This document shows, in pieces, positions 24,063-26,479 of a stretch of 64,000 nucleotides of DNA. Each line of letters begins with the position of its first letter. Position 1 is the first letter of the stretch. The notes beneath the pieces are model-generated. The model did not search any database. It was given only the letters and a program-made list of their open reading frames with translations, and was not told the origin of the DNA. A program made the position numbers and the translations under genes. The DNA comes from Bacteroidia bacterium (GTDB taxonomy: Bacteria > Bacteroidota > Ignavibacteria > SZUA-365), in the NCBI GenBank assembly GCA_027493955.1, contig JAOSJT010000001.1:4512552-4576551 (forward strand), given 5' to 3'.

Positions 24063-24977
24063 GTGGCGGGGACACTGCGAGCCGTCTCCGTGCTGCTGAT
24101 CGTCGTTCTTGCAGCCGCCGGGTGTGGACGGGTCCAGCGTGAATCCCCAAGCGACGCACGGAGTATAACCGACGATCTGGGGAGGTCGCTGCGCCTCGAC
24201 GGCGTCCCGCAACGTATCGTGAGTCTCGCGCCCAGTTTTACCGAAACGTTGTACGCGCTTGGAGCGGACAGTTTGCTCGTCGGGGTAACGCGATACTGCA
24301 ATTATCCACCCGCCGCGAAATCCAAAACGAACATCGGAGATCTTCTCGCACCGGACATCGAGGGTATCCTTGCGCTCGACCCGGATGTCGTGCTTATTTC
24401 CATTGAAGGCAACTCCCAGCACACGTTTGCACGGCTACAGGAATTCGGGGTGCGTGTGTTCGTCTCCAACCCACGCGATCTCGACGGGGTACTGAAATCC
24501 ATCACCGACATCGCCGAGATCACCGGAAGGACAAACACGGGCAAGAAGCTGACATCCACGTTGCGGGCCGTACGCGACAGCGTGCTTGCACATCCGCCCG
24601 TGAACAAGCCCGCCGTGCTCATGTTGCTGTCTCTTCAACCACTGATCGCAGCCGGATCGGGAACGTTTATCGGTGAACTCATTGAATCCGCGGGGGGACG
24701 GAACGCGGCGGGCGACCTCACCGCTTCCTATCCAGTCATGGACAGGGAAGATGTGCTGCTGCGCAATCCGGATATTCTCCTGCTATCCGATGACCTCAGC
24801 GCCGACCCAGAGGCCGTGCTGGAACGATTCCCTGAATGGAAACGCCTGACGGCTTTTCGCCGCGAAGCCATGCACCGCATCGAAGCGGACAAACTCATGC
24901 GACCGGGGCCCCGGCTCTTTGATATTCTTCGCGAATTTCACGAAATGTTCCTTCACACCGAAAGCGATCATCGGTGA
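24063..24977 (+). CDS. BtuF-like substrate-binding lipoprotein of a metal/cobalamin ABC importer
   Basis: 304 aa with a GTG start 4 bp after the proline dehydrogenase stop. The signal peptide ends in lipobox LAAAGC (Cys21). The mature part is a class III helical-backbone metal-receptor: PQRIVSLAPSFTETLYALGA, GDLLAPDIEGILALDPDVVL, a long helix, then LLLSDD and a C-terminal LRPGPRLFDILREFHE. Such proteins capture cobalamin, haem or ferric siderophores for an ABC importer. The permease and ATPase are absent here, so the ligand is open; resemblance to BtuF is the best guess. Confidence 0.88.
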   Translation: MAGTLRAVSVLLIVVLAAAGCGRVQRESPSDARSITDDLGRSLRLDGVPQRIVSLAPSFTETLYALGADSLLVGVTRYCNYPPAAKSKTNIGDLLAPDIEGILALDPDVVLISIEGNSQHTFARLQEFGVRVFVSNPRDLDGVLKSITDIAEITGRTNTGKKLTSTLRAVRDSVLAHPPVNKPAVLMLLSLQPLIAAGSGTFIGELIESAGGRNAAGDLTASYPVMDREDVLLRNPDILLLSDDLSADPEAVLERFPEWKRLTAFRREAMHRIEADKLMRPGPRLFDILREFHEMFLHTESDHR

Positions 24978-25073: not shown

Positions 25074-25490
25074 ATGGGCGATTCATGAAACAGCCGCTTC
25101 CGCGTTGAAGGTGGGCCATTCATGGAACACCCACATCTGCATCGAAAGTGGGCGATTCATGAAACACCCACATTTGCGTTGAAAGTGGGCGGTGCATGAA
25201 ACACCCACATTTGCGTTGAAAGTGGGCGATTCATGAAACACCCACATTTGCGTTGAAAGTGGGCGATTCATGAAACACCCACATTTGCGTTGAAAGTGGG
25301 CGATTCATGAAACACCCACATCCGCGTTGAAAGTGGGCGATTCATGAAACACCCACATTTGCGTTGAAAGTGGGCGATTCATGAAACACCCACATTTGCA
25401 CCGAAAGTGGGCGATTCATGAAACACCCACATTTGCACCGAAAGTGGGCGATTCATGAAACACCCACATTTGCACCGAAATTGGGTGTTT
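25074..25490. repeat. Eleven-copy 37-bp tandem repeat, each unit containing a near-palindrome
   Basis: The core ATG triplets sit at exact 37-bp steps (CAT at 25084, 25121, 25158, 25195, 25232, 25269, 25306, 25343, 25380, 25417, 25454). Each unit has a 24-bp imperfect palindrome starting GTGGGCGATTCATGAA and ending CCCAC, centred on the perfect palindrome TTCATGAA (20 of 24 positions symmetric), plus a 13-bp linker such as ATTTGCGTTGAAA. Copies vary: the first is degenerate, copies 9-11 have ACC for GTT in the linker, and the array ends in a decayed half unit. The period is not divisible by three and the consensus has stops in every forward frame, so it is noncoding. There are no unique spacers. 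Confidence 0.95.
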
Positions 25491-25717
25491 CACCGAACAC
25501 GCCTCCGGTGTCGGCGACGGCTACCTTCGCTCCGCACCTTGCGGCTGTCTGTTTCCGGACGAGGATCAAGGCATTGTGGGTGTATTTGGAGCCACTGCCC
25601 CGCGAGTGATTCACTACAGCTCATGTCGCAACGATGAGACAAGGCAGGGCTTTTGTTGTCACGAGGCCGTTCCAGCTGCGTGTCGGTGTTGCGATGACGA
25701 AGGCAGTACACGAGTAC

Positions 25718-25843: not shown

Positions 25844-26479
25844 TCAGGAGGCCGGCTCGGCCTTCTCCGTTGCGAGTTTTTTAAGATTCATGCCGGACGC
25901 TATACGTCGGGGTGAGCCTTCGGGTAAGCCGTCCGTGGTGATTTTTACGATATACCGATCGCCGACGAGCAGATTGGCTTCGGCATGCTGCGACTTGGAA
26001 TTCCACGATTCGAACGCGGGCGAACCGGCAATTTCCACACTGCGTTCATAGCCCGTGGTGCTCTCCTTATTGAATTTCATTTTCAGAGCGATGGTATAGG
26101 GAGTGTACAGGACGCCGATGAAGGCGTAGTCAAAAATTTCTATTCTGACACGCTGAGGTCCGCCTTCGGCCCGGTACTCGGCATTTGCCTGTGAATATTG
26201 CCACTCGCCCATACTGGCTGATTCACCTTCCGGTTCACCCCGGGGCAAACCCTCCGCGGTCTCGGGAAGATAATTGAGCAGGACGCGAAAACTCACGGGC
26301 GGGACGGGTGTGCGTTCTTCCGATACGCTTTTGGACATCTCCTCCGCCGCGGTTTGCATGTTCTTCGCAGCGTCGGACAGTTTATCGAGAGTGCTCGGTT
26401 CATCACTTTTTCCGCAGCCCGTGAAGGCCAGCGGTGCGGCAACGAACAGTACGAGGGTGAGAATGGTTATCGCACGCAT
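25844..26479 (-). CDS. Small lipoprotein of unknown function
   Basis: 211 aa from ATG 26479, which has GGAG 8 nt upstream; an ATG 12 bp earlier has none. The signal peptide ends in lipobox AFTGC (Cys22). A helical segment (STLDKLSDAAKNMQTAAEEM) resembling a short coiled coil follows. The remaining 150 residues are predicted mostly beta, containing RVRIEIFDYAFIG and GDRYIVKITTDGLPEGS. Similar small lipoproteins with an N-terminal alanine-rich helix occur in related genomes without assigned function. It has its own promoter candidate and lies downstream of the PBP gene on the same strand. Confidence 0.78.
   Translation of the reverse strand: MRAITILTLVLFVAAPLAFTGCGKSDEPSTLDKLSDAAKNMQTAAEEMSKSVSEERTPVPPVSFRVLLNYLPETAEGLPRGEPEGESASMGEWQYSQANAEYRAEGGPQRVRIEIFDYAFIGVLYTPYTIALKMKFNKESTTGYERSVEIAGSPAFESWNSKSQHAEANLLVGDRYIVKITTDGLPEGSPRRIASGMNLKKLATEKAEPAS

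Follow-up and report, generated by a model that had tools for sequence, protein, structure and literature searches.

REPs are among the commonest palindromic repeats in bacterial genomes, and whether REP transposases are selfish elements, have been domesticated for a task in the cell, or combine the two is an open question. The closest described systems are the REP and BIME repeats with their RAYT genes (REPtrons) of E. coli, Stenotrophomonas and Pseudomonas (PMC2817692, PMC3733652, PMC8266576). The REP head is GT(A/G)G (PMC2817692), and many known REP families contain fewer head-to-tail dimers than expected (PMC3733652). Recognition by TnpA-REP in E. coli depends on fixed mismatches, and Tyr-to-Phe mutants show no cleavage (PMC8266576). 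HuH and Y motifs were common to all sequences surveyed in PMC6006769; Bertels et al. (2017), as cited there, describe RAYT groups that are thought to be domesticated and to serve the host. In open-licence papers, no description of catalytically inactive RAYTs was found.

The window analysed here, a stretch of 64,000 bases (4512552-4576551) of a single contig of 5,237,942 bases, contains a head-to-tail array of 37-bp palindromic units. The best explanation, with a probability of about 0.78, is a tandem array of a lineage-specific RAYT-associated REP, together with a catalytically dead, probably hairpin-binding RAYT lineage. There is good support for the identification as a REP family; hairpin binding by the HuH-less protein is putative, and any local function of the array is hypothetical.

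The array and its convergent setting

At positions 25075-25473 of the window, Tandem Repeats Finder detected a repeat of period 37 with 10.8 copies, 93% matches and 0% indels. The palindrome GGGNGNTTCATGAANCNCCC occurs there 11 times at exact 37-bp spacing, from 25076 to 25446, and, with up to 3 mismatches allowed, nowhere else in the 64-kb window; the chance expectation is 0.32, and 11 copies were reached in 0 of 100 shuffles. The palindrome is 24 bp long, and a decayed twelfth copy was read directly from the sequence (Table 1). The array was assigned to the minus strand from the arm pattern GGGTG...CGCCC, the linker fitting both strands about equally. For all nine arrays that were compared, the consensus shows a mismatch or a wobble at position pairs 4/17 and 6/15 of the 20-mer, which flank the palindrome core symmetrically. 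The strongest departures from the consensus were found in the first two and the last three units, and the change GCGTT -> GCACC is common to the last three linkers. Each forward frame across the array contains 5-6 stops. An earlier note on this DNA had claimed eleven units in exact 37-bp phase, a GTT-to-ACC block in the last copies, a near-palindromic unit, noncoding character from stops in every forward frame and a convergent intergenic setting; all of this is borne out, the neighbouring genes ending at 24977 (+) and 25844 (-).

Table 1. Coordinates of the array, its neighbours and the RAYT-derived genes (positions in the window for the first four rows)
Feature	Position	Strand	Remarks
Eleven-unit head-to-tail 37-bp REP array	25074..25482	-	palindrome starts at 25076 + 37n, n = 0-10
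Decayed twelfth palindrome, GGGTGTTTCACCGAACACGCC	25483..25503	.	in 37-bp phase
Left convergent neighbour, periplasmic binding protein (Peripla_BP_2)	24063..24977	+	context
Right convergent neighbour, lipoprotein-like, without Pfam match	25844..26479	-	context
C gene, RAYT homologue	3210621-3211286		between two 37-bp arrays (3.2106-3.2113 Mb)
A copy (example)	L081:5223-6035		3.283 Mb
A copy (example)	L076:6661-7428		3.258 Mb
A copy (example)	L077:6975-7742		3.520 Mb
A copy (example)	L131:5320-6132		4.831 Mb
B copy	L126		5.216 Mb
B copy	L127		2.571 Mb
B copy	L128		0.379 Mb
B copy	L129		4.592 Mb
B copy	L130		2.266 Mb

A CRISPR array was rejected, since the 17-bp intervals are not unique spacers but homologous to one another, both inside one array and from array to array. 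In an Rfam scan of the locus, all matches were far below the gathering scores and nearly all belonged to microRNA families, being triggered by the repeated hairpins.

Unit identity is 90% within arrays vs 79% between arrays, and units of the window array differ by 2.6 at lag 1 vs 7.0 at lag 9. These values support the growth by internal duplication proposed in the earlier note; the tandem REP array probably grew by local tandem duplication. Differences per site are fewer in the palindrome than in the linker, both within arrays (0.069 vs 0.136) and between arrays (0.144 vs 0.216).

The folding energy of a single unit is -9.9 kcal/mol for the minus and -5.9 kcal/mol for the plus strand, where the hairpin is modest because of fixed mismatches in the stem. 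Two neighbouring units pair at -32.7 kcal/mol on the minus strand (z = -5.2). Repeated RNA hairpins, one of the roles listed in the earlier note, would be a possible role of the array according to these predicted structures.

Five of the eight long 37-bp arrays are located between convergent genes, as against 0/9 short copies (Fisher p = 0.009); convergent gaps make up about 15-16% of intergenic space, which gives 5/8 a binomial p of about 0.003-0.004, the test being post hoc and the numbers small. This bias, the strong pairing of neighbouring units, and the A-rich and T-rich flanks common around dispersed single copies are consistent with a function between convergent genes, either as a bidirectional barrier to transcription or as a stabiliser of 3' ends; the array would then be under selection for this role whatever its origin. 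Such a function is possible but rather unlikely as the explanation of the array, since an intrinsic-terminator scan gave zero sites inside it, the other three long arrays are not convergent, and the same bias is expected from mere purging out of operons and promoters. The convergent bias as such fits either a read-through barrier or the loss of long arrays that lay in operons or promoters.

The REP family in the genome and its RAYT-derived genes

The earlier note had proposed that the unit be sought elsewhere in the genome, in relatives, and near the origin or terminus. The genome search revealed about eight further arrays, as well as singles and dimers. With up to 3 mismatches, the 20-mer of the unit gave 152 forward and 138 reverse matches genome-wide, and a reversed-control 20-mer gave none in the same genome. 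Further arrays, found by BLAST with the array, are located at 0.783, 1.218, 1.239, 2.118, 3.210, 3.212, 3.967 and 4.095 Mb, and short copies were found in the same search. The other loci that were read out comprise dimers, singles and 37-bp arrays, the longest with 25 units. A second palindrome class, with the core GGGCGATACATGAATCGCCC, recurs with periods of 45, about 118 and 151 bp. Every one of the 33 palindrome loci examined lies in intergenic DNA, gene context being taken from fetched stretches of the genome, in which 83% of the sequence is coding according to a simple gene caller.

In relatives, the 37-bp array pattern was absent from the 40 searched, and a stricter single-palindrome pattern was not found in 390 genomes of the same class. 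The array pattern also gave zero matches in genome_contigs and viral_contigs, where the records of the genome itself were possibly excluded. The distribution of about 35 loci along the chromosome is even (KS p = 0.5).

Several loci have a more complex structure. At 1.2179-1.2188 Mb (L054:6863-7763) a 37-bp array is disrupted and re-duplicated as larger units with a 154-bp step and a non-palindromic insert. At 3.2115-3.2123 Mb (L057:8464-9287) open frames of 136-199 codons run through a 37-bp array; they are an effect of the repeat and could be mistaken for genes by automatic annotation. At 4.369 Mb (L070:6260-6850) and 2.626 Mb (L069:6200-6700) a related palindrome is contained in tandem repeats of a larger unit, about 118 bp and 151 bp long, respectively, the sequence of which is otherwise unrelated.

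The list of roles in the earlier note is partly upheld by this distribution. The mobile repeat family was right and can now be specified as a RAYT-associated REP family. A plain single-locus minisatellite was rejected, since the unit is dispersed over the genome, in about eight other arrays and in singles, and is associated with a gene family. An iteron-like function, with the sites bound by a replication or partition protein, is hardly credible: the regular 37-bp spacing of a dyad-symmetric site would fit it, but the loci are evenly spread, and no replication genes were found beside the arrays examined.

The gene family is represented by a clade of 15 HuH-less proteins, namely, subfamilies A (nine genes), B (five genes) and C (one gene). 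Proteins of subfamily A are about 270 residues long and about 35% identical to those of B. Genes of subfamily A, eight in the first fetched set and nine in the genome, have 45-bp-period arrays about 220 bp downstream, and the B genes are located about 220 bp upstream of their own palindromes, with between 1 and 4 copies of AATTTCGATTCATGAATCGAAATT or near variants of it per gene; the core of AATTTCGATTCATGAATCGAAATT has nine matches, every one of them at the five B loci. The distance from the stop codon of the C gene to the first downstream palindrome is 231 bp. Thus, a separate palindrome goes with each subfamily; the core is common to all three, and the spacing is similar.

The A copy L067 contains a stop codon near the start, and the B copy L130 is truncated. 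A and B proteins (L081, L126) have a C-terminal extension of about 100 residues, LLGRxLFL...GPxRIFL, which gave zero library matches and is absent from canonical RAYTs.

The frame of the C gene is open over 221 codons and was stop-free in 0 of 2000 shuffles. Its third-position GC, 0.49, is low for the genome and similar to that of one of its canonical RAYTs. The gene is single-copy and could be a decaying pseudogene. The window array is 1.3 Mb away from it and would be linked to the C protein via the repeat sequence only.

Comparison of profiles of the HuH-less proteins and canonical RAYTs by hhalign gave a probability of 99.85 (E = 1.4e-30, 163 columns), which shows homology to RAYT / TnpA-REP (Y1 core). 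Canonical relatives match NF047646, below the cut-off, and TnpA-REP of PDB 4er8; the canonical RAYTs of G005 and G006, genomes of sister genera in the same family, are also below the NF047646 cut-off. For A, B and C, an NCBIfam search gave zero matches, and Pfam Y1_Tnp matched only A, with 14.8 bits against a cut-off of 23, and neither B nor C. The profile libraries miss all three subfamilies as RAYTs, which may explain why such proteins have gone unnoticed.

In the maximum-likelihood tree, A, B and C form one HuH-less clade (support 99/94), the sisters of which are the canonical RAYTs of G005 and G006 (support 97/99). The G005 gene has three copies of GTAGGGCGGATTCATGAATCCGCCCTAC on its upstream side and a variant of it on its downstream side, and the pattern has 51 matches in that genome; thus, the 37-bp palindrome is tied to the REP family of the same RAYT lineage. 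The position of the C gene between arrays, the palindromes of A and B, and the association of GTAGGGCGGATTCATGAATCCGCCCTAC with the G005 RAYT indicate that the window array belongs to a REP family.

Loss of catalytic residues, selection and dispersal

The HuH motif is replaced by E-V-E in all nine A proteins, by S-I-E or C-V-E in B, and by S-A-H in C, which keeps one His of the pair. According to the alignment, the catalytic Tyr and the Asn of the Y---N motif are replaced in 15 of 15 proteins of the clade. HuH and Tyr are kept by all relatives in the alignment and by every one of 38 further relative ORFs, which were taken from searches of the class and of the phylum; HuH-less relatives were found neither in genome_contigs nor among these 38 ORFs. 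Given the absence of HuH and of the catalytic Tyr, the clade is classed as RAYT-derived and not as an active RAYT.

In the RAYT core of A and B, dN/dS is about 0.05-0.27, with dS up to about 1.8; the pair L076/L077 is nearly identical and uninformative for this ratio. The coding sequences of A and B are under strong purifying selection.

These data bear on the reading of the array as a neutral satellite, which would have arisen from a REP copy by slippage and would have no present role or protein interaction. It can be entertained tentatively: growth was local and concerted, the repeat is restricted to the species among the 40 relatives and 390 same-class genomes searched, and the C gene is possibly decaying. 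It is less compatible with the greater conservation of the palindrome than of the linker within and between arrays, with the co-divergence of repeat and protein across three subfamilies, and with purifying selection on the A and B proteins.

The nine A copies are at unrelated loci and are 68-99% identical. The HuH-less ancestor on the tree indicates, barring parallel losses, that A and B copies multiplied after the catalytic loss. Between two A elements, L076 and L077, identity is 98.7% across 1113 bp, a stretch that begins 13 bp ahead of the start codon and ends with the last palindromes; the flanks differ on both sides. Their upstream 80 bp have diverged, with some motifs still common. Either recent copying into new sites or gene conversion would account for this pair. 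For the dispersal of A and B in general, another enzyme acting in trans, gene conversion between older copies, or a novel activity of the protein itself could be responsible.

Mobilisation of the REPs and the A and B elements in trans by a canonical RAYT or other transposase, with the HuH-less proteins as passengers, is unlikely. The genome encodes three or more proteins in which HuH and Tyr are intact (4215650, 887848 and 1004597), and the near-identity of the two A elements points to recent copies, but the TTCATGAA palindrome flanks none of the three genes, the flanking repeats, where found, differ, and purifying selection on passengers is unexpected. The Y1_Tnp gene 4215650, the only one that the family search of the genome detected, was rejected as a partner, being flanked by GGAAGTGTCGYCCTGCGG with no TTCATGAA palindrome nearby, and the canonical RAYTs 887848 and 1004597 were rejected because the same palindrome does not flank them.

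At about 4.2155 Mb (L071:7380-8860), a HuH-intact IS200-like Y1 transposase is located beside many copies of GGAAGTGTCGYCCTGCGG with CCCCACACTTACGTATGGGG. The canonical RAYTs at 0.888 Mb (L159:6301-6852) and 1.004 Mb (L063:4423-5427), with intact HuH and Tyr, were missed by the Pfam family search of the genome; the former is followed by TGTAGAGACGCCCGGCCGGGCGTCTCTACG.

Dispersal by the HuH-less proteins of their own genes and palindromes, by a different chemistry or by guiding another enzyme, is quite improbable; an example of such chemistry would be a metal site in which His-u-His is substituted by the conserved Glu-Val-Glu. If true, the 37-bp arrays would belong to a REP system no longer using the HuH/Tyr mechanism.

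In the preferred reading, an active ancestral RAYT, or elements moving with it, would have seeded the palindromes, and slippage during replication, or unequal recombination, would then have amplified the 37-bp units in place. Binding of the folded palindrome by the protein probably continues, without cleavage. Most likely, the array is still present at this locus because a convergent intergenic gap tolerates it, and it is perhaps also a bidirectional barrier to read-through.

The catalytic residues are lost clade-wide, A and B are conserved, the palindromes are subfamily-specific, and spread followed the loss; taken together, putative hairpin binding would be separated from catalysis here. A service to the host through REP binding by RAYT-derived proteins could be tested directly in this clade. 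The 37-bp arrays illustrate the fate of a REP family without its own active transposase, namely, long head-to-tail arrays grown in place.

Comparison with known systems

The repeat is an imperfect palindrome of 24 bp, extragenic and present in many copies, and is within the 20-40 bp typical of REPs. Its head is GTGG, found in 85 of 97 C units and also paired at the other arm, and copies flank a catalysis-less RAYT homologue, the C gene, in the same genome. The alternating unit orientation of a strict BIME is absent; the units are head-to-tail, and the locus is therefore named a tandem REP array, not a BIME proper. The under-representation of head-to-tail dimers in many known REP families argues against the REP reading.

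Similar to REPtrons, the system consists of short extragenic palindromes with a GT(A/G)G head and a stem with fixed mismatches, in dispersed and clustered copies, with a homologous protein gene between copies and co-divergence of protein and palindrome between subfamilies. Unlike in REPtrons, the cognate protein lacks the catalytic residues, the units keep a head-to-tail 37-bp phase instead of alternating, and the head is symmetric, with GTGG on both arms paired within the stem. The ATTCATGAAT core and the stem plan are common to the REP of G005, the RAYT of which belongs to the sister group of the HuH-less clade and has REP copies on both sides, with an upstream spacing of about 117 bp; in G005, however, HuH, Tyr and Asn are intact, the head is GTAG, and 37-bp arrays are absent. 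IS200/IS605-type Y1 transposases belong to the same protein family by profile comparison and share the hairpin at the element end, but here HuH and Tyr are lost, and A and B have the additional C-terminal residues. With the domesticated RAYT groups, as far as PMC6006769 relates them from Bertels et al. (2017), the clade shares RAYT-derived proteins; it differs from the groups as related there in the loss of the HuH and Y motifs across the whole clade. The kind of repeat system, a REP, is known; in the variant seen here, the associated transposase lineage is catalytically dead, yet conserved and dispersed in two of its three subfamilies.
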